IMG/VR virus record: IMGVR_UViG_3300017773_000104
Location: 1 to 27,365 of that record
Reading direction: 5' to 3' (one strand)
Origin: a virus
DNA length: 27,365 bases
Of this stretch, positions 2 to 21,873 are shown piece by piece; within the stretch, counting starts at the first letter, position 1, and each line of letters opens with the position of its first letter. The position numbers were made by a program, and so were the translations under genes. The notes beneath the pieces were generated by a model. That model had not been told where the DNA came from, ran no database searches, and saw nothing but the letters and a program-made list of their open reading frames with translations.

Positions 2-226
2 TTAAAACGATTTCCACCTGGTGATAGATGGACACCCGCTGATTCTGAACAACCCGTATTTTCAAGTCTAACAGAGGGAATTGAATGGGTTTTTCAATCA
101 ACACAAGCAAGAGATTATTTAATAAAAGCAGCAGAAGGCCAAGTTTTTGTGTATTGTGAAAATGAAATAGCAGAACCTGAACCAGAACCAGTAAAAACAT
201 ATAATTTATATGGAGAATATGAGTAA
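2..226 (+). CDS. Partial hypothetical protein (3' end only)
   Basis: Reading frame 2 is open from the left edge to a TAA at 224-226 and gives 74 residues, so the 5' end lies outside the window. The visible part includes TEGIEWVFQSTQARDYL, then a short acidic Pro-Glu repeat (AEPEPEPV) and an ordinary C-terminus, LYGEYE. No family is recognised. The stop overlaps the start of the next gene as ATGAGTAA, typical of translationally coupled phage genes, and this supports the frame being real. No function can be assigned. Confidence 0.6.
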   Translation, partial: LKRFPPGDRWTPADSEQPVFSSLTEGIEWVFQSTQARDYLIKAAEGQVFVYCENEIAEPEPEPVKTYNLYGEYE

Positions 227-836
227 AAAAATAGGATATGTAATTGTTATGATATTTTGGTTAGTAACATTAACTATATTGTCTGTAATGACAGGATGTT
301 ATGTTACATCTTATACTCCAGATCCTATATATGAAGATCACCCACATACAACTGAAGTATATTGGTATACTGATTATGAATTAGGAGGCACACCATACTT
401 TGGGTATTGGGATAGTTTTTATTATTATTATGGGATTCCTCATTTTTACCCATGGTGGTATTATTATCAATTTATTCCTCCTTACCATTATTACACACAT
501 TCCCACATACACATACATTGTGATAATGGTCATTATGTATATGGACATAGAGGACCTACACTTAATAATAATATATCAAAAGATTTTACACCAACAATAA
601 AAATAAAAAATAATAAAGATAAATCATTTGTTTTTCCTAGAGATTGGAAATCAAGTAATTCAACCAGAATTAATAAACATAACAATATTAATAAAACGTT
701 TGATTATGGAAATTTTAATAAAAATAATAATAAGCGTAATAATAACATTAATTTTAATAAAAATAACAAAATAAATAAAGGTAATAATGGATCTACGAGA
801 CCAAATAAAACAAACACTAGAAGAAAACCAAAATAA
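219..836 (+). CDS. Tyr/Trp-rich putative lipoprotein with Asn/Lys-rich tail
   Basis: The protein begins MSKKIGYV, has a hydrophobic segment (residues 7-24), and then a lipobox-like V-M-T-G-C with the candidate lipidated cysteine at residue 27. I chose the ATG at 219 over an in-frame ATG at 210 because it overlaps the upstream stop (ATGAGTAA) and gives a tighter signal peptide. Residues about 50-110 are extremely rich in Tyr, Trp, His and Pro (for example YYYYGIPHFYPWWYYYQF). The last 80 residues are low-complexity Asn/Lys/Arg. It is probably exported and anchored in a membrane; the function is unknown. The Asn/Lys tail comes from an AAT/AAA-rich tract and overlaps the next gene by 50 bp. Confidence 0.7.
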   Translation: MSKKIGYVIVMIFWLVTLTILSVMTGCYVTSYTPDPIYEDHPHTTEVYWYTDYELGGTPYFGYWDSFYYYYGIPHFYPWWYYYQFIPPYHYYTHSHIHIHCDNGHYVYGHRGPTLNNNISKDFTPTIKIKNNKDKSFVFPRDWKSSNSTRINKHNNINKTFDYGNFNKNNNKRNNNINFNKNNKINKGNNGSTRPNKTNTRRKPK

Positions 837-1303: not shown

Positions 1304-1327
1304 TCGACTTTGCAACCTATATCTATT

Positions 1328-1651
1328 ATGCATATTCCCCCTTCGGGAACCACTCAGCATACATTACATGCTTGGGTAGCACATATAAGTAATATATGTG
1401 TAGGTCACATTCATCTTCAAAGAGAATCAAATAAACGTATTAAATTTTTAGACGCTTGGGTCCATCCTAATTATAGAAGACAGGGTATATATAGAAAACT
1501 ATGGGATACTCGTTGGATATATGTTAAAAAACATTTTAATAATTTTACATGTTATGCCTGGGCCAAACCAATGTCTTTACCTTTATTAATTGAAAAAGGT
1601 TTTAATCAAGGAGATACATGTGTTTATGTTGAAAAGAAAATTGCAAAATAA
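1328..1651 (+). CDS. GNAT-family N-acetyltransferase
   Basis: This is a short GNAT-fold protein, about 107 residues from the ATG at 1328. The diagnostic motif A is present as DAWVHPNYRRQGIYRKLWD: the beta-strand followed by an R-x-Q/G-x-G/A acetyl-CoA pyrophosphate loop (RRQGIY). The preceding strand carries VGHIHLQ and the C-terminal half has CYAWAKPMSLPLLIEKGF, the usual strand and helix near a conserved K-G-F in GNATs. It should transfer acetyl from acetyl-CoA to an amine; the substrate is unknown. A TTG at 1310 could extend it by six residues, but a promoter-like box sits just upstream, so the ATG is preferred. Phages use such enzymes to modify host proteins or nucleotides; which applies here cannot be seen. 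Confidence 0.8.
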   Translation: MHIPPSGTTQHTLHAWVAHISNICVGHIHLQRESNKRIKFLDAWVHPNYRRQGIYRKLWDTRWIYVKKHFNNFTCYAWAKPMSLPLLIEKGFNQGDTCVYVEKKIAK

Positions 1652-4395: not shown

Positions 4396-4457
4396 TGAAT
4401 CGCTAGTATTTATATTAGCTGCTATTTTGGACCCGGGTTCGATTCCCGGCATCTCCA
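4396..4457 (+). ncRNA. ssrA: tmRNA acceptor piece (3' half)
   Basis: From 3' to 5': discriminator A at 4457, acceptor strand CATCTCC (4450-4456), T-arm CCGGG-TTCGATT-CCCGG (4433-4449), and the conserved tmRNA sequence TTTTGGAC (4425-4432). The P2 strand then runs back to about 4396. The bases after the discriminator are CTA, not CCA, so the CCA end must be added after processing. The 5' end is inferred from the last helix with the coding piece (TGAATC with GATTCA). Confidence 0.85.
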
Positions 4458-4461
4458 CTAG

Positions 4462-4535
4462 GGGGGATTAGCTCAGATGGCTAGAGCGCTTCGCTTGCAC
4501 CGAAGAGGTCATGAGTTCGAGTCTCATATTCTCCA
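4462..4535 (+). tRNA. tRNA-Ala (anticodon UGC)
   Basis: The cloverleaf is complete: acceptor GGGGGAT (4462-4468) with ATTCTCC (4528-4534); D-stem GCTC/GAGC with loop AGATGGCTA; anticodon stem CTTCG/CGAAG with loop CTTGCAC (anticodon TGC at 4496-4498); variable AGGTC; T-stem ATGAG/CTCAT with loop TTCGAGT. The discriminator is A4535. The G3-U70 pair fits alanyl-tRNA synthetase identity. CCA is not encoded (CTT follows). It lies between the two halves of the tmRNA, so RNase P and 3' trimming of this tRNA would also separate the tmRNA pieces. Confidence 0.96.
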
Positions 4536-4546
4536 CTTTAATGATA

Positions 4547-4768
4547 GGGGATGACTGGTTTTGACAGATAGTAAGGATATAAAGAAGATTCAATGCAACA
4601 ACTGGCAAACAAGTTGAAACGGTGAAAGCAGGTATTTTTGCTTCATTAGCAGCAATCAGATTTCTGGCAACAGAAACTGTAGCTACTGAAGAATCAGTAT
4701 TTGCGATGGCTGTCTGATAGGGCACTCAACACCAACGGCAAACAAGGATCAAGTCGTAAAAATCCTAG
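4547..4768 (+). ncRNA. ssrA: tmRNA coding piece (5' half) with tag reading frame
   Basis: It starts GGGGATGACTGGTTTTGACAG, closely matching the conserved tmRNA 5' end (CTGGNTTNGACAG). After the P2 strand, CAACT/AGTTG (4599-4603 with 4612-4616) is a candidate first stem of PK1; its second stem is not resolved. An open frame ends in the double stop TGA-TAG at 4715-4720. If the resume codon is GCA at 4667 (after ATTTCTG), the tag is ATETVATEESVFAMAV; GCA at 4649 or 4652 would lengthen it. The two stops sit in the loop of a 4-bp stem (4711-4714 with 4721-4724). Only about 45 bases separate this from the terminator, so the usual PK2-PK4 array is largely missing, as in other two-piece tmRNAs. The 3' end is approximate. 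Confidence 0.83.
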
Positions 4769-4829: not shown

Positions 4830-5885
4830 ATGAAAAAGATTTTTTTAGTAATTTTAGCGTTATTTACGTTAAATGCTTCCGCCCAAGAATGGAAACCTAA
4901 ATTAAAAAAGGTTTTTAAATATTCAACGTTTTATGGTGCCGTAAATGGTGGTAATTCTATATCTGATGTAGATGTATTTTCTATAACAAATGGATTAGAA
5001 ACAGAAACAATAGAAACACCCTTTGATTATTCATTAACTTTTGGTGTTAGAAAAATAGCAAGGTTAGGATATGAAAATAGAGCAAATACTTTTTATAATG
5101 GTACCGAAAATTCTTTTTCAGACGCTGCTACTATAGGTAAAATTAAAGGATTTGAATTTTTATTTGAATTAGATTATACAAGACAACAAGGTATTAATTT
5201 CTTAAATCAACAACATTTTTTAAGATATGTTGCTAATAAATGGATAGCAAAAATAGAATATATCCAAGATGGTTTTGCAGACATTGAATATTTTGAAGCT
5301 TCAGAAAGATACAGATTAAAAATAGGAAATAAACTTTCATTTAATGTAGGAGCGGTACAAAGATTATCAGAACCTTATGGATATAATCCTTTAGAAGAAT
5401 GGATGTTATCAAATGGTAATTTACATTATTCACAATTAGCATTACAAGAAGGATATTCAGTTACATTTGATGGACAAGGTGGTACAGAATATTTTGATCC
5501 ATCAAATAATTCAGTCGCAACTAGTACAGAAGTTTGGGAAGCAGTTATTATACCCCAAGCACTAGCAGATTATACAGAAAAAAAAAGAAACCAATTAAGC
5601 CAAACATTACAACACTCTTTAGTTATAGGATTTGATTATTATCATTTTACAGATGATTTTTGGGTTCATAGTTGGGGAAATGTAATGCCTTATCATTATA
5701 ATAATAATGGAGAATATTCATATCACAAATTTAATGATGGACAGTGGGTAGATTATTCAGGTGGTTTAATATTTGGTTATAGATTTAATAAAAGTTTGGG
5801 AATATTTTTAGAAGGAAAATATAATAAGTATTGGAATCGTAACTGGCACGATTTTTCATTTGGTTTAAATTATGTAATATATTAA
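4830..5885 (+). CDS. Secreted, outer-membrane beta-barrel-like protein
   Basis: A clear Sec signal peptide (MKKIFLVILALFTLNASA, cleavage after Ala18, before QEW) precedes about 330 residues of alternating polar/hydrophobic strands rich in Tyr, Phe, Trp and Gly: for example GKIKGFEFLFELDYTRQQ, NKLSFNVGAVQRL, YSGGLIFGYRFNKSLGIFLEGKYNKYW and a final strand WHDFSFGLNYVIY ending in Tyr. This pattern and the aromatic C-terminus suit a Bacteroidetes outer-membrane barrel. No specific family is recognised. It is first in a four-gene cassette of exported products. A surface-remodelling or superinfection-exclusion role is inference. Confidence 0.7.
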   Translation: MKKIFLVILALFTLNASAQEWKPKLKKVFKYSTFYGAVNGGNSISDVDVFSITNGLETETIETPFDYSLTFGVRKIARLGYENRANTFYNGTENSFSDAATIGKIKGFEFLFELDYTRQQGINFLNQQHFLRYVANKWIAKIEYIQDGFADIEYFEASERYRLKIGNKLSFNVGAVQRLSEPYGYNPLEEWMLSNGNLHYSQLALQEGYSVTFDGQGGTEYFDPSNNSVATSTEVWEAVIIPQALADYTEKKRNQLSQTLQHSLVIGFDYYHFTDDFWVHSWGNVMPYHYNNNGEYSYHKFNDGQWVDYSGGLIFGYRFNKSLGIFLEGKYNKYWNRNWHDFSFGLNYVIY

Positions 5886-5888
5886 AAA

Positions 5889-6173
5889 ATGGCAAAAGAA
5901 TTAAACGAAGACACATCATTTAAAATAAGTTTAAAAACATTAGGAGGAATAGCAGTATTAATTTTTACACTTGTGGGAATGTGGTTTACATTACAAGCAG
6001 AAATTACTTTAGCTAAAGAATTACCAACCCCTCCAAAACCGGATGTTACTAGGATGGAATTTGATATGAAAGATAAAAATATTCGATTAACAATCGAAAA
6101 TACTCAAGACGATGTTGAAGAGATTAAAGAAGATTTGAAACGTATTGAAGAAAAAATAGATAGATTAAAATAA
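5889..6173 (+). CDS. Single-TM coiled-coil membrane protein (holin-like?)
   Basis: The 94 residues comprise a charged N-terminus, one transmembrane helix (about residues 17-36, TLGGIAVLIFTLVGMWFTLQ), a Pro-rich hinge (ELPTPPKPDVTR) and a C-terminal coiled-coil (about 60-94, TIENTQDDVEEIKEDLKRIEEKIDRLK). I recall closely similar small proteins recurring in uncultured marine phages. The topology would suit a holin, spanin-like or membrane-tether protein. It sits three bases after the barrel-like gene and five before the thioredoxin-fold gene, so the three are very likely one operon. No enzymatic motif is present. Confidence 0.7.
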   Translation: MAKELNEDTSFKISLKTLGGIAVLIFTLVGMWFTLQAEITLAKELPTPPKPDVTRMEFDMKDKNIRLTIENTQDDVEEIKEDLKRIEEKIDRLK

Positions 6174-6178
6174 ACAAT

Positions 6179-6526
6179 ATGAAAAAATTATTATTATTAT
6201 TAGGCTTAATATCGATTTCAAGTCTTACTTTTGCACAAAAATCTCCTTGTAAATCAGATATATGTGTAGTACAATTTAACGCTGGATGGAACTCATCAAA
6301 TGATGTAGAATGGGTAAACGATTTAGGTGATTGTGGTGTAAAATATATAGATATAGCAACAGACACAGATTCACAAGACTTATATGAAATAGTAGTTGTA
6401 CCAACAATTATAGTATTCAATGGTAAAGAAGTTAAAAGATTTCAAGCTGATATTTCTTTTGCTATGAAAGCAACAAAAAAAGATGTTCAGGAGGTAATAG
6501 ATGAAATCCTAATGGATCAATTTTAA
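6179..6526 (+). CDS. Secreted thioredoxin-fold protein lacking the CxxC site
   Basis: It has a signal peptide (MKKLLLLLGLISISSLTFA, cleavage before QKSPC), then a thioredoxin-like core: strand ICVVQFNAGW, helix, CGVKYIDIATD, and VVPTIIVFNGKEVKRF with the cis-proline loop (Pro75). The active-site WCxxC is replaced by W37-N-S-S-N41, so the usual disulfide chemistry is missing; the remaining cysteines (24, 29, 52) lie elsewhere. It would act in the periplasm or outside the cell, more likely as a binding or adaptor protein than as an oxidoreductase. I recall similar proteins in marine phage contigs, which supports a phage rather than a host origin. Confidence 0.75.
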   Translation: MKKLLLLLGLISISSLTFAQKSPCKSDICVVQFNAGWNSSNDVEWVNDLGDCGVKYIDIATDTDSQDLYEIVVVPTIIVFNGKEVKRFQADISFAMKATKKDVQEVIDEILMDQF

Positions 6527-6538
6527 AATTATAAATAT

Positions 6539-9532
6539 ATGAAAAAGTTATTATTAATATTGGCGTTATTGCCAACAATGTTATTAGCACAAAATAGTTG
6601 GATAAACATACAACTATTAACAGATAATTATCCAGGAGAAACTTCTTGGCAAATAACACCTCCAGGAGGTTCACCTATTATTATAGGTAATGATTCAATT
6701 ACTGAATCTAACTTCTTATATGATACTATTATTCCTATAGGAGGAGATATAATTGTATCTATATTTGATTCATATGGTGATGGGTTAGGTGCTTCACAAT
6801 GGGGAGGAACAGATGGATGGTTCTTAATACAAAATGATTGTCAAGATACAATTATGTATGTCGCAGGGGATTTTGGATTATCATATATAGATACATTAAC
6901 AATTGCACCGTGTGCACCACCTGCACCAGATGTATTTGGATGTATAGACATAAATGCATTAAATTTTGACTCACTAGCAACTGCAGATGATGGTAGTTGT
7001 ACATATCCTGCCTGTGGTGGGATTTTATCATCTAACGCATATCAAAATTGTTATCCAGGAGGTCAAGCATTAGCTATATTTGAGTGGACTACAGAAGCAT
7101 ATAATCCTTCATGCGAAACTGTTAAGGTTTGGTATACAAACGCCGAAGGTGTTGGACCATATCAATATGGTGTACCACCTAATGCAACTAATTTTGCAGT
7201 TAATGCAGGTAATGGTCAAATGCCCCCTAATTGGAGTGTAGAACACTATTTACAAGTAGAGTTTGCAGATGGTACTATGTCTGATACCATTACTTATACT
7301 CCTACTCCGTGTATTGATGGATGTACAGACCCAACACAAATATCTTATAATCCTTGGGCAACAGAAGATGATGGTTCATGTTCTGGAACTACCTGTGATA
7401 CTTCAAACCAATATCAAATTACAATGGAAATTACATTTGATAATTGGCCTAGTGAAACTTCATGGATAATGAATAGTTTAGGAGTTATAGATGAAGCTAT
7501 TGTAGGAACATATGATTTTAATGATATAGGACAAACATATACATATAATTTTTGTGTAGATCAAAATGCAGGATTTGAATTAATAGTTAACGATGATTAT
7601 GGTGATGGCATGGCGGGTTCTACATCAGGTGGAACAATGGATGGCTCAATTATTATATATGATTGTTCAGGAGATACTATTTGGTATATGGATAATCCAG
7701 GATTTGGAGACACTTTATATTCAGGGGCCCAATCAGCAACCCCATGTTCTACTATCCCCACAATAGATGGATGTACAGATGATGATTATCAAGAATTTAA
7801 TCTATTAGCAAATAACGATGATGGTTCTTGTATTAACTTACACATATATGGTTGTACTGACTCTAATGCATTTAATTATGATCCAACAGCAACAATGATG
7901 GACTTGATACCAGATTGTAATTATGAATTATGGATTGGAGATGCAGGTGGTGATGGATGGGGTAATTCATATATAGGAGTTTATCAAAATGGTATAGATT
8001 TAGGAACATATACAATGGGTCCTGGAAATTATCAACAAACATTTAATTTAATTTTAGATCCAGGGATTCCAGTAGAAGTATTTTATTTTGAAGTAGGAGG
8101 ACCACAACAACCCCCACAAGAAGTACAATTTCAAACATGGCATAACTCATTTAAATTAACTAATGCTAATGGTGTTGAATTAATGTATGAAGGTCAGAAT
8201 CCTTTTGCAAACAATGGTCAAGGAGCTTTACAATCATTTGACTCACCATTTTTTACAAAATATACAGCAATACCATTTTGTGGGACAACTTGTATCCCAA
8301 CAGTTGAAGGTTGTATGGATATAAACTCATTTAATTATGATTCTAATGTAAATGTAGATGATGGATCATGTATAGAATACATTTATGGTTGTACAAACGA
8401 ATTTGCCATAAATTATAATCCATTAGCAAATGTCGAAGACAATTCATGCATCCCTTTTATAAATGGATGTACAGATCCTATTGCTGATAATTTTAATCCA
8501 TTAGCAAATTTTGATGACTTTTCATGTTATTATATTGGATGTATGGACAATACAGCATGTAATTATAATTCAATAGCAACTATATCAAATGGTTGTTTAT
8601 ACCCCCCAACATATTATGATTGTTATAATGTCTGTTTAAATGATGTTGATAGTGATGGGGTTTGTGATGAATTAGAAGTATTAGGTTGTACAGATCAAAC
8701 AGCACTTAATTTTAATATTAATGCTACAGATAATGATGGTTCATGTATAATGCCTATATATGGTTGTACTGACCCTGTAATGTTTAATTATGACGCAACC
8801 GCAAATACAGATAATGGTTCTTGTATAGAATTTATTTATGGATGTACTGATTTAAATGCGTTTAATTATGATGCAACAGCAAATACTGATAATGGAACTT
8901 GTGTAGAAATTATAATAGGATGTACAGATAATATAGCATTAAATTATGACCCATTAGCAAACACATTAGATAATTCATGTTGTTATATTGCGGGTTGTAC
9001 AGATTCAACAGCACTTAATTATGATTCAGATGCATGTTTTGATGATGGCACATGTGTTGTAATTATAGAAGGATGTGCAGATCCTAATGCATATAACTAT
9101 GATCCTTTAGTTAATTTACCTGACAATACTACTTGTTTATATAATGCAGGATGTTATGGAGGACCAGGAATTCCATATTGGTTAAACGATGGATGTTATG
9201 CTTGGGTAATAGATATAGATTCATATTGTTGTACGGATGATTGGGATACAAGTTGCCAATCAATGTATGATTATTGTCAAAATGGTTGGCCAGTATCAAT
9301 AGAAGAATCTGAATCAGGAACAATTATAGTATATCCTAACCCAACAAATGATATTTTAAATATAGATACACGATTAGAAATTGATGTAGAAATATATGAT
9401 ATGATGGGTAAATTAATAATATCAGAACAAAATACAAAAAGAATAATGCTTAATTATATTCCAAAAGGAATATATAATTTAGTCATTAAGCATGATAAAT
9501 TAAGAGTAACTAAAAGAATAATTAAACAATAA
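6539..9532 (+). CDS. Giant Cys-rich repeat surface protein with T9SS type A sorting domain
   Basis: The protein has 997 residues and a signal peptide (MKKLLLILALLPTMLLA). Three Gly/Asp-rich segments resemble one another (DSYGDGLGASQWGG near 78, DDYGDGMAGSTSGG, DAGGDGWGNSYIGV). About 14 copies of a 20-24-residue repeat, GCTDxxAxNYDxxANxDDGSC, run from residue 134 to about 866; the Asp-rich loops suggest calcium binding and the paired cysteines suggest disulfides. A Cys-rich IDSYCCTDDWDTSCQSMYDYC segment follows. From about 921 the C-terminus is a T9SS type A sorting domain: IVYPNPTNDILNI, VEIYDMMGKLI, LNYIPKGIYNLVI, KRIIKQ. Such domains send proteins across the outer membrane to the cell surface of Bacteroidetes. 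In a phage this implies use of the host T9SS. Function unknown; adhesion, receptor masking or exclusion are possible. Confidence 0.88.
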   Translation: MKKLLLILALLPTMLLAQNSWINIQLLTDNYPGETSWQITPPGGSPIIIGNDSITESNFLYDTIIPIGGDIIVSIFDSYGDGLGASQWGGTDGWFLIQNDCQDTIMYVAGDFGLSYIDTLTIAPCAPPAPDVFGCIDINALNFDSLATADDGSCTYPACGGILSSNAYQNCYPGGQALAIFEWTTEAYNPSCETVKVWYTNAEGVGPYQYGVPPNATNFAVNAGNGQMPPNWSVEHYLQVEFADGTMSDTITYTPTPCIDGCTDPTQISYNPWATEDDGSCSGTTCDTSNQYQITMEITFDNWPSETSWIMNSLGVIDEAIVGTYDFNDIGQTYTYNFCVDQNAGFELIVNDDYGDGMAGSTSGGTMDGSIIIYDCSGDTIWYMDNPGFGDTLYSGAQSATPCSTIPTIDGCTDDDYQEFNLLANNDDGSCINLHIYGCTDSNAFNYDPTATMMDLIPDCNYELWIGDAGGDGWGNSYIGVYQNGIDLGTYTMGPGNYQQTFNLILDPGIPVEVFYFEVGGPQQPPQEVQFQTWHNSFKLTNANGVELMYEGQNPFANNGQGALQSFDSPFFTKYTAIPFCGTTCIPTVEGCMDINSFNYDSNVNVDDGSCIEYIYGCTNEFAINYNPLANVEDNSCIPFINGCTDPIADNFNPLANFDDFSCYYIGCMDNTACNYNSIATISNGCLYPPTYYDCYNVCLNDVDSDGVCDELEVLGCTDQTALNFNINATDNDGSCIMPIYGCTDPVMFNYDATANTDNGSCIEFIYGCTDLNAFNYDATANTDNGTCVEIIIGCTDNIALNYDPLANTLDNSCCYIAGCTDSTALNYDSDACFDDGTCVVIIEGCADPNAYNYDPLVNLPDNTTCLYNAGCYGGPGIPYWLNDGCYAWVIDIDSYCCTDDWDTSCQSMYDYCQNGWPVSIEESESGTIIVYPNPTNDILNIDTRLEIDVEIYDMMGKLIISEQNTKRIMLNYIPKGIYNLVIKHDKLRVTKRIIKQ

Positions 9533-17004: not shown

Positions 17005-17592
17005 ATGGCGTTTAAATTAAAATCATATATATACAGTAGAGAAGCAGAAAATAGAGGCATTAACAACATGCCTGGAGTTGATGTGGGTTCAGATTCTAAA
17101 TTAACCCCTGAATATATTATAGGTAATTTAGAATTATTACATAATAAAGTTGTAGATCCTATAATGAGACATTTCAATAATTTAGAAGGTAGTAGTGGTA
17201 ATTCTATAGGAGTAACATCAGTATATAGGTGTAAAGAATTAAATGAAGTTGTAGGGGGTGTAGAAACATCCCAACATATACAAGGAATGGCTTGTGACAT
17301 AATATACACAGAAGGATTTGCATCAGAAGTATATAACTGGGCTATAAATAATTTACCCACCTGGAATCAAATAATTTGGGAGTTTCCTGAAAAAGGACAA
17401 TTTAGTAGTGGTAATACTGATTCAGAGTGGGTCCATGTAGCTTATAATGAAAATGATAACAAAAAAACAAAATCATTAGCTTCAGAAAAAGAAAACTTAC
17501 ATGAATACTATAAAAATAATGAATCTTCAAGAAGGGGTCAATATACTCATGATCTAGAAGAAGAGGCAAACCAATTAATAGTTTTTAATTAA
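17005..17592 (+). CDS. M15-family zinc peptidase (baseplate lysin or endolysin)
   Basis: The 195 residues include the peptidase M15 signature: VTSVYRCKELNEVVGG (Arg75), SQHIQGMACDI with His91 and Asp98, and EWVHVAY with His144. These are the zinc ligands of D-Ala-D-Ala carboxypeptidases and L-Ala-D-Glu endopeptidases. It should cut peptide bridges of peptidoglycan. It has no signal peptide. Its place between two structural baseplate-type genes suggests a virion-borne lysin opening the wall on entry; an endolysin for exit is the alternative. The C-terminal 40 residues are charged and Asn/Glu-rich, perhaps a docking tail. Confidence 0.88.
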   Translation: MAFKLKSYIYSREAENRGINNMPGVDVGSDSKLTPEYIIGNLELLHNKVVDPIMRHFNNLEGSSGNSIGVTSVYRCKELNEVVGGVETSQHIQGMACDIIYTEGFASEVYNWAINNLPTWNQIIWEFPEKGQFSSGNTDSEWVHVAYNENDNKKTKSLASEKENLHEYYKNNESSRRGQYTHDLEEEANQLIVFN

Positions 17593-19567: not shown

Positions 19568-19981
19568 ATGGCCATAGTACAAGGAATAAGAAAAGACCCA
19601 AGAGATCTTAATAATATTAAGATAGGAGTAGCTTTCCCCTTGGACGAAACAAATTTATTTGCTAGCACAGATACTCTTACAGAACAAGCAAAATCTGATC
19701 TTATTAATGTATTATTAACATTTCCTGGTGAAAGAATAAATTTACCTGATTTTGGCGTTGGGTTAAAACACTTATTATTTGATCAAAAACTAGATTTAGG
19801 ATCTTTAAAAGCCAGAATAAGAACACAAGCAGATTTTTATGTACCTAACATTCAGGTAGTAGGTGTAAATTCATCAATGTCTGAAGATAACCAAACATTA
19901 TTTGTATCTATATCTTTCGTGTCTTTATTAAGTGGAACATTAGATTCAATACAATTAAATTTACAAACCGGTAATTACTAA
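19568..19981 (+). CDS. Baseplate wedge protein gp25
   Basis: The protein has 137 residues, close to T4 gp25 (132). The family signature is present: LTEQAKSDLINVLLTFPGERINLPDFGVGLKHLLFDQ, the P-G-E-R ... F-G-x-G-L ... F pattern of the gp25/lysozyme-like baseplate fold, followed by an extended C-terminal beta region (ANIQVVGVNSSM..., VSISFVSLLSG). In the contractile baseplate it binds the first sheath ring and the gp6 core of the wedge. Its stop overlaps the ATG of the gp6 gene by one base, and gp25-gp6 adjacency is the conserved order in contractile phages. Confidence 0.95.
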   Translation: MAIVQGIRKDPRDLNNIKIGVAFPLDETNLFASTDTLTEQAKSDLINVLLTFPGERINLPDFGVGLKHLLFDQKLDLGSLKARIRTQADFYVPNIQVVGVNSSMSEDNQTLFVSISFVSLLSGTLDSIQLNLQTGNY

Positions 19982-21873
19982 TGGCATATTCAAAAATAAC
20001 AAATAAAAACCAAGATAGAGAAGTTAATTATTTAGCTAAAGATTATAATTCTTATAAAGCCAAATTAATAGAATTTACAAAAACATATTTTCCTAATAAT
20101 TTTAATGATTTTAGTGAAGGTAACCCAGGAATGATGTTCTTAGAAATGGCAGCATATGTGGGGGATGTATTATCTTATTATACTGATACTCAATTAAAAG
20201 AATCAATTTTATCTTCAGTACAAGAAAGAGAAAACTTATATAATATAGCTCATACTATGGGTTACAGACCTAAAGTAACAACAGCGGCTTATGTAAATTT
20301 AGAAATATCCCAATTAGTACCCTCAAAAATAATAGATGGGTCCTATGAGCCCGATCATGATTATGCCTTAAATGTAAATTCAGATTCTACATTTTCTTCT
20401 ACAGATGGTACTACTTTTTATATAACAAAAGATGCTAGATTTGGTTTTTCATCTAGTTTTGAACCTACAATAACAAGTATATACCAATATGATGGCTCAG
20501 ATAACCCAGAATATTTTTTACTTAAAAAAACAATACCCGCCATTTCTGCCAAAGTAAAAAAACAAACATTTTCAGTTGGAACCTCACAAAGGTATTTAAC
20601 TATAGACTTATTTGATTCTAACATTATTTCAATAGAATCAATTATAGATAGTAGTGGTAATGAATATCATGAAGTTCCTTATTTAGCCCAAGATACTAAA
20701 TTTGAAGAAGTAGAAAATAAAGCAGCTAATGACCCTGAATTACATCAATATAACCACCAAACCCCTTACTTACTTAAATTAAAAAAAGTACCTAAAAGAT
20801 TTACTACAAGAATAAAAGCAAATAATAAAATGGAAATCCAGTTTGGATCAGGTGTAAGTGATAGAGCAGACGAACAAATTATCCCCAATCCTGATAATAT
20901 TGGTTTAGGGATTTTAGATGGAAGAAGTAAATTAGATGTATCTTATGACCCTTCTAACTTTTTATACACTAAAGCTTATGGAGAAGTCCCAGCTAATACA
21001 ATATTAACAGTAAAATATTTATCAGGAGGGGGTATGCAAGCTAATGTAAATTCAAACACAATTGTAAATTCAGGAGAATTAAAAATCACACCAAAACCTA
21101 ATTTAAATCAAGGTATGTTAAATTTTGTAAAAGCTTCAATCCAATCTACTAATATAGAACCAGCAAGAGGAGGGGGAGGAGCAGAATCTATAGAAGAAAT
21201 TAGGATGAATACTATGGCTAATTTTGGAGCCCAACAAAGAACTGTTACAAGAGATGATTATTTAATTAGAACTTTATCTATGCCCCCACAATTAGGAAGA
21301 GTAGCTAAAGCATATATAGTTCAAGATGATCAAACTTCACCTTTAACAAATGAACCAGGTAGAATACCTAATCCTTTAGCTCTAAATTTATATACTTTAG
21401 GATATGATATTGATAAAAAAATAACAACCTTAAACACAGCAACTAAAATAAATTTAGCTAATTATTTAGAACAATATAGAATGCTAACAGATGCTGTTAA
21501 TATTAAAGATGCATTTGTAATAAATTTTAGTATGGATTTTGAAATCACAACATACAAATCTTATAATAATCAAGAAGTATTATTAGCTGTTATCACTGAA
21601 CTTCAAAATTATTTTAATATAGATAAATGGCAAATAAATCAACCAATTATTATTTCTGAAATAGAAAATCTAATAGGTGGAGTAAAAGGAGTACAGACAG
21701 TAGAAGATGTTAGATTTGAAAATAAAAGTGGGGAAGAATCAGGGTATTCAAAATATAAATATGGTTTTAAGGGAGCAACTAAAAATAACGTAATTTATCC
21801 TTCAATGGACCCTAGTATATTTGAAATAAAATATCCTAATGCTGATATTCAAGGACGTGTAACAACATATTAA
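19981..21873 (+). CDS. Baseplate wedge protein gp6 (J-like)
   Basis: The protein has 630 residues and matches the gp6 core: VNYLAKDYNSYKAKLIEFTKTYFPNNFNDFSEGNPGMMFLEMAAYVGDVLSYYTDTQ near the N-terminus, then QERENLYNIAHTMGYRPK, and a C-terminal part with GGAESIEEIRMNTMANFGAQQRTVTRDDYLIRT. These are hallmarks of the wedge ring subunit that forms the iris-like inner baseplate and transmits the contraction signal. T4 gp6 has a similar length (660). It shares one base with gp25 and is followed at once by a beta-structural gene. Confidence is high. Confidence 0.95.
   Translation: MAYSKITNKNQDREVNYLAKDYNSYKAKLIEFTKTYFPNNFNDFSEGNPGMMFLEMAAYVGDVLSYYTDTQLKESILSSVQERENLYNIAHTMGYRPKVTTAAYVNLEISQLVPSKIIDGSYEPDHDYALNVNSDSTFSSTDGTTFYITKDARFGFSSSFEPTITSIYQYDGSDNPEYFLLKKTIPAISAKVKKQTFSVGTSQRYLTIDLFDSNIISIESIIDSSGNEYHEVPYLAQDTKFEEVENKAANDPELHQYNHQTPYLLKLKKVPKRFTTRIKANNKMEIQFGSGVSDRADEQIIPNPDNIGLGILDGRSKLDVSYDPSNFLYTKAYGEVPANTILTVKYLSGGGMQANVNSNTIVNSGELKITPKPNLNQGMLNFVKASIQSTNIEPARGGGGAESIEEIRMNTMANFGAQQRTVTRDDYLIRTLSMPPQLGRVAKAYIVQDDQTSPLTNEPGRIPNPLALNLYTLGYDIDKKITTLNTATKINLANYLEQYRMLTDAVNIKDAFVINFSMDFEITTYKSYNNQEVLLAVITELQNYFNIDKWQINQPIIISEIENLIGGVKGVQTVEDVRFENKSGEESGYSKYKYGFKGATKNNVIYPSMDPSIFEIKYPNADIQGRVTTY

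Follow-up and report, generated by a model that had tools for sequence, protein, structure and literature searches.

T9SS type A sorting domains have already been described in the products of phage genes. For the Cryophage (Bellas et al. 2020, PMC7468147) it was suggested that such cargos exploit the host system so that the phage can secrete proteins, compete or exclude superinfection, and gut phages encode tandem-repeat proteins (the crAss-BACON/T9SS sorting-domain ORFs), one of which has a T9SS sorting domain, with the T9SS cargo lying near BACON-repeat genes (PMC6949934). Also known is the curli (type VIII) module that pelagiphages carry, a multi-gene surface-adhesin/outer-membrane module which moves between unrelated marine phages. 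It was proposed to serve sibling capture or the defence against superinfection (PMC9599517, PMC9004378), and lysis timing was argued as well (PMC9004378). In pairs of a protein with a type B C-terminal sorting domain (CTD) and PorP/SprF, the adhesin gene adjoins an outer-membrane barrel gene (PMC12618676, PMC9143113). As for substrates with a type A CTD, PorV carries them from the SprA translocon, and they end anchored on the surface or released (PMC12618676).

The locus studied here lies in a 27,365-base IMG/VR virus fragment (hereafter the window), in which baseplate wedge genes at 19568-21873 indicate a contractile-tailed phage. An earlier, sequence-only reading presented a T9SS cargo as unexpected for a phage, but such cargo has precedents in the reports mentioned above (PMC7468147, PMC6949934). 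It also treated the cargo alone and overlooked three partner genes which travel with it. Our best reading is that the cargo forms the surface part of an envelope module of four genes, together with W08, W09 and W10, the localisation of these partners being inferred. The module genes and the parts of the cargo are located in the window as follows.

4830-5885, + strand: W08, a 351-aa secreted outer-membrane beta-barrel-like protein, called the barrel below (homologue alignment, structure model, fold search)
5889-6173, + strand: W09, a 94-aa protein that has a single TM segment, a coiled coil at its C-terminus and an i-spanin-like layout, assigned to the inner membrane (alignment, neighbourhood comparison)
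6179-6526, + strand: W10, a 115-aa secreted thioredoxin-fold protein without CXXC, with a Val-Pro-Thr motif of the cis-Pro type (alignment, profile against PDB)
6539-9532, + strand: T9SS cargo, a 997-aa Cys/Asp-rich multidomain adhesin-like protein (ORF call, NCBIfam, homologue alignment, pattern scan)
6539-6592, + strand: signal-peptide-like segment of the cargo, MKKLLLILALLPTMLLAQ (inspection; same segment type in aligned homologues)
6593-6913, + strand: variable N-terminal beta domain, residues 19-125, swapped among phages (alignment A3; mean pairwise identity 0.32)
7847-8293, + strand: conserved middle domain, residues 437-585, GDAGGDGWGNSYIG...VQFQTWHNSF...NPFANNGQGALQ (near-invariant columns in A3)
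8309-9139, + strand: main GCTD repeat array, residues 591-867 (A3, pattern scan)
9146-9313, + strand: strongly conserved pre-CTD domain, residues 870-925 (A3; mean pairwise identity 0.65), consensus GCYGGPGIPYWLNDGCYAWVIDxDxYCCTxxWDxxCQSMYDYC
9329-9529, + strand: T9SS type A CTD, residues 931-997 (TIGR04183, 43.4 bits; Foldseek to 8glk_D)

The C-terminus of the cargo is matched by TIGR04183 over its full length (43.4 bits, E 2.5e-11; curated cut-off 23 bits) and by PF18962 with 46.9 bits (cut-off 27 bits), and the placement of a type A sorting domain at residues 920-997 in the earlier reading was about right. The match goes far beyond chance, the same CTD being present in all 21 aligned cargo homologues (TIGR04183). 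The CTD as predicted by AlphaFold2 superposes in Foldseek on 8glk_D, the solved, T9SS-bound CTD of the T9SS substrate NucA (target TM 0.79, rmsd 2.1 A, 29% identity), and thus has the Ig-like fold of such domains. A type B CTD (TIGR04131) was not found in the cargo, as the NCBIfam scan was significant for type A only. At the other end of the protein, the N-terminus (MKKLLLILALLPTMLLAQ-NSW) resembles a Sec signal peptide by inspection only, and a helix spans residues 2-16 in the AlphaFold2 model; on these grounds we agree with the signal peptide proposed previously.

Between the two ends, a pattern scan counted 14 GC[MTAI][DNE]...C units, including two short ones, which fits the previous estimate of about 14 GCTD-type repeats. 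The cargo contains 52 Cys, 98 Asp and 91 Asn, with only 16 Lys plus Arg. The AlphaFold2 model of the whole cargo is of low confidence (pLDDT 68.6, pTM 0.33), and the multi-domain Foldseek matches of the cargo body (fibronectin, contactin, GhpA) were set aside, with a query TM near 0.1. Pfam revealed no enzymatic or toxin domain in the cargo, only the CTD and, in some members, bacterial TSP3 repeats; as the latter are matched by 4 of the 21 cargos, calcium binding is suggested. As far as its sequence can tell, the domain architecture of the cargo is that of an adhesin. One could suppose that the cargo is secreted and has its target in the medium or in other organisms, being toxin-like, enzyme-like or a public good, since type A CTDs can free substrates into the medium (PMC12618676) and an endoglucanase, a GH39 protein and a PA14 protein are found among the cargos of the Cryophage (PMC7468147). 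However, the absence of an enzymatic or toxin domain and the adhesin-type architecture both speak against it, and we find this explanation improbable.

The sequence-only reading had noted that the stretch between 4800 and 9550 might be host DNA in a chimaeric contig. Here, we found an independent IMG/VR contig, L020, which is collinear with the window across the cargo (W00, W02, W04, W05, W08-W12, W15-W28) and thus has the same gene order on both sides, which supports a phage rather than a chimaeric locus. Pieces of the cargo are common among Bacteroidia genomes, which could be taken to mean that host DNA was misassembled into a phage contig, or that the cargo is a transient host moron gene useless to the phage. 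However, the module is repeated in dozens of independent viral contigs, its flanks are collinear in L020, and the barrel is nearly absent from bacteria, so that we give this idea next to no credence; a chimaera or host-DNA origin is contradicted by L020 together with those independent contigs. The TIGR04183 match and the collinear flanks jointly support, in silico, the earlier claim of a complete T9SS substrate inside a phage genome. From the CTD and the established knowledge of T9SS, surface display or release via the host T9SS follows; export of the cargo by T9SS is well supported in silico, while export itself, including its dependence on PorV and SprA, is inferred.

Some further genes of the window deserve mention. 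A lipoprotein-like protein of 208 aa is encoded at 210-836 (+ strand), with the lipobox SVMTGC and a body that is first His/Tyr-rich and then Asn/Lys-rich; its product is a further envelope protein of this phage. A GNAT acetyltransferase gene occupies 1310-1651 (+ strand; Pfam E about 6e-6). Just upstream of the module, at 4397-4717 (+ strand), lies a permuted (two-piece) tmRNA, which matches the full Rfam model RF04321 with 67.6 bits (gathering 47), in agreement with ARAGORN. Two-piece tmRNAs are known from marine phages (PMC9004378). The intervening segment of this tmRNA encloses a complete tRNA-Ala(UGC) (4462-4535, 65.1 bits), an arrangement for which no report was found in the literature searched. 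RF04321 was found in 6 of 27 related records, and three of these six span 159-161 nt, which is too short for a tRNA insert.

The recurrence of the module was assessed in viral contigs. Searching with the cargo yielded 41 loci, the viral contigs concerned being up to 231 kb long, and the contigs that carry the module are marine and otherwise dissimilar in gene content. After removal of near-duplicates, and with at least 2.5 kb required on both sides, barrel and cargo were present in 42 of 42 loci, W10 in 41 of 42 and W09 in most. The commonest order is cargo-W08-W09-W10; we also found W08-W09-W10-cargo, W09-(x)-W10-cargo-W08 and orders interrupted by additional genes. A scan of IMG/VR with the barrel as the sole query confirmed at least 578 relatives in viral contigs; since numerous loci were found by the barrel alone, the association between barrel and cargo is not only a product of the cargo-based search. 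TIGR04183 scored above its cut-off in 39 of 46 module records, with one cargo per positive record. Among the seven negative records, L041 had entered by its repeats only, the cargo of L107 is cut by the contig end, and the remaining five have a shortened CTD-like tail (LLGRPTK...YSDGxVxKxxxKK), which leaves the export of these relatives uncertain.

Among about 85,000 bacterial and archaeal species genomes the barrel occurs in three MAG contigs only, and these are best read as phage contigs inside MAG bins. One of them (L044), from a Candidatus Nitrosopelagicus MAG, carries a module fragment and is best read as a misbinned phage contig. None of 294 other Bacteroidia genomes has the barrel, while pieces of the cargo (CTD, repeats, N-terminal domain) were matched in 219 of 295; thus, the cargo seems to be built of host-type parts and the barrel seems to be phage-specific. 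That the host is a Bacteroidota-type bacterium is inferred from the T9SS signal and from a phage-like contig binned in a Flavobacteriales MAG. INPHARED contains no relatives of W08, W09 or W10, and the cargo search there gave only weak repeat similarity to a tail-region protein of Marine virus AG-345-P14, which is not the module.

The barrel, W08, is the most constant marker of the module and shares 59-77% identity with its aligned relatives. It was modelled as an outer-membrane barrel with modest confidence (pLDDT 69), and its fold matches are generic outer-membrane barrels and porins only, the best being NanC (query TM 0.37, target TM 0.57). In a viral fold library one viral protein was matched (A0A516LKJ4, TM 0.64, 22% identity). 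A sequence search of PDB with W08 gave no match, and neither did NCBIfam or Pfam, TIGR03519 (PorP/SprF) included. An assignment of W08 to PorP/SprF was rejected, as hhalign of 28 PorP/SprF proteins against the W08 alignment (A1) gave 9% probability over 21 columns. For W10, the profile (A2) matched thioredoxins in PDB (best E 5.5e-8), and no Cys is present at the CXXC site in any of 17 aligned proteins. None of the four module proteins matched the PADLOC anti-phage defence models, and no curli genes (CsgG/CsgF/CsgA) were found among their Pfam, PHROG and NCBIfam matches. In three loci a second TM/coiled-coil protein (...DILYQDSMYTIIQNTQNDITEIKEDIVHILERLDY), perhaps a diverged W09 paralogue, is encoded between W09 and W10 (L012 9228-9572, L014 15136-15477, L020 7442-7780).

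Conservation is uneven along the module. Mean identity is 0.65-0.67 for the barrel, W09 and the pre-CTD domain, 0.32 for the cargo N-terminus and 0.38 for the CTD, and the number of repeats per cargo ranges from 6 to 33 across phages (loose pattern). A variable repeat number and N-terminus on a conserved barrel, W09 and pre-CTD domain form the pattern expected of an adhesin. Moreover, W08, W09, W10 and the cargo domains diverge in parallel (between genes, Mantel r is 0.19-0.50 with p at most 0.002), with r reaching 0.74 between the pre-CTD domain and the CTD.

GCTD repeats are not confined to the cargo. They occur as well in phage proteins without signal peptide or CTD, which are large ORFs of module-carrying phages, and a 514-aa GCTD protein adjoins tail-collar fibre genes in Marine virus AG-345-P14. 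The GCTD-repeat proteins without signal peptide or T9SS domain, for which PHROGs gave no match, are located as follows.

L156, 3504-6539
L158, 3416-6613
L159, 4263-9092
L160, 8154-12854
L161, 3050-7555
L162, 2599-4977
L124, 3598-5142

As the repeats are found in both the cargo and probable tail proteins, they give the impression of a binding module in general use among marine phages. Since phage proteins encoded within or close to structural and tail genes contain related GCTD repeats, one could also think of the cargo as a virion part, exported and then acquired by progeny at the cell surface. However, those proteins are the products of separate genes and lack signal peptide and CTD. The cargo possesses the two, for which a virion protein put together in the cytoplasm would have no use. 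We therefore regard a virion part as very improbable.

The reading to which we incline, though only by a little, is that of a phage surface-remodelling module which borrows the host T9SS so as to equip the infected cell with an adhesin. It is not backed by experiments, by expression data or by an isolated phage. What is observed is how the cargo sequence is built, its CTD, and the fact that the module genes occur together and are conserved among phages; the host phylum, the export, the localisation of each partner, the adhesion and the purpose are added by inference. The cargo would be made by the infected cell and moved by Sec to the periplasm, where its type A CTD would deliver it to the T9SS translocon of the host and to PorV as the shuttle, so that it would end on the infected-cell surface or be freed from it. 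W09 would be an inner-membrane coiled-coil component supplied by the phage; W10, as a putative redox-dead thioredoxin fold in the periplasm, could plausibly assist the 52-Cys cargo as its chaperone or adaptor; and W08 would be the outer-membrane barrel, plausibly an anchor or partner of the cargo. Acting as an adhesin-like coat, the cargo may alter what sticks to the infected cell. It may compete with, or mask, T9SS-exported surface adhesins which serve other phages as receptors, and it may also, or instead, clump neighbouring cells ("sibling capture"). The T9SS adhesins SprB and RemA are possible receptors of phages, and flavobacteria become phage-resistant through mutations in gliding genes (PMC13288928), which makes receptor masking plausible. 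Clumping of cells would be the other option, by analogy with what has been argued for the pelagiphage curli modules.

The strongest rival to surface remodelling remains a lysis or egress function. In such a case W09 would be spanin-like, and the barrel, the thioredoxin fold and the cargo would, as the infection ends, help to weaken or open the outer membrane or keep progeny from adhering to debris. In 36 of 65 loci, holin-like or endolysin-type genes are found at most three genes away from the module, and lysis-type families make up 14.7% of near genes in comparison to 2.0% of far genes (odds ratio 8.5). The families near the module are holin-like, GTA-type holin, M15 and amidase, of which M15, amidase and GTA-holin were assigned by Pfam and PHROGs. 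M15-related genes adjoin the module in other phages, and the window has a gene of this type as well.

17005-17592, + strand: peptidase M15 endolysin-type gene (PF08291, 43 bits, cut-off 23.2)

The layout of W09 fits an i-spanin (N-terminal TM segment, coiled coil), with topology unproven and a weak holin match only, and the module members map to successive envelope layers. However, the enrichment is inflated and partly circular, because some lysis families were chosen for recurring near the module, and the M15 gene of the window is 7.5 kb off. No small o-spanin lipoprotein partner constant in the module was found across the compared loci. Moreover, T9SS export requires time and an energised membrane, and a long disulfide-rich cargo suits the period before lysis better. 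A lysis function is thus unlikely in our opinion, yet it deserves to be kept in mind. A two-TM holin-like family of 71-78 aa (IFKDxNxxNEKxIVGFxAF...VVLGCFGIAGLEKF), without Pfam match, was seen in L005 (14691-14906) and about 25 other loci, where it usually adjoins the module directly.

Returning to surface remodelling, a bolder version can be put forward only tentatively, as possible rather than probable: a widespread, horizontally moving viral display system, in which a dedicated outer-membrane barrel of the phage, with helpers in the periplasm and the inner membrane, would load a hypervariable adhesin that the T9SS of the host delivers. Infected Bacteroidota cells in the ocean would thus receive a new coat, by which rival phages would be excluded and sibling cells captured. 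Single T9SS cargos of phages were previously known as oddities. Since IMG/VR contains at least 578 relatives of the barrel, and INPHARED none, the hijack of a Bacteroidota-specific secretion system would be a common strategy of marine phages, and the barrel is a marker for a large uncultured phage group. The module also offers a test of T9SS-based surface remodelling by phages, T9SS being at the same time the exporter of possible receptor adhesins.

No earlier report of the four-gene module was found in the literature searched, in which most subscription journals were not covered. The Cryophage differs in having three variable cargos with enzyme/PA14 domains in one phage, termed a unique occurrence (PMC7468147), whereas the present cargo is a repeat adhesin in a conserved four-gene module of many marine phages. 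The gut phage proteins carry BACON repeats, and no barrel, thioredoxin or coiled-coil partners were described for them (PMC6949934). Unlike curli phages, which bring CsgG/CsgF, phages with the present module would depend on the T9SS of their host for export, and the module proteins showed no curli match. In comparison to the type B CTD and PorP/SprF pairs, the CTD here is of type A and the barrel has no detectable relation to PorP/SprF. A phage T9SS cargo is in itself already known; the conserved module of four genes appears to be new.
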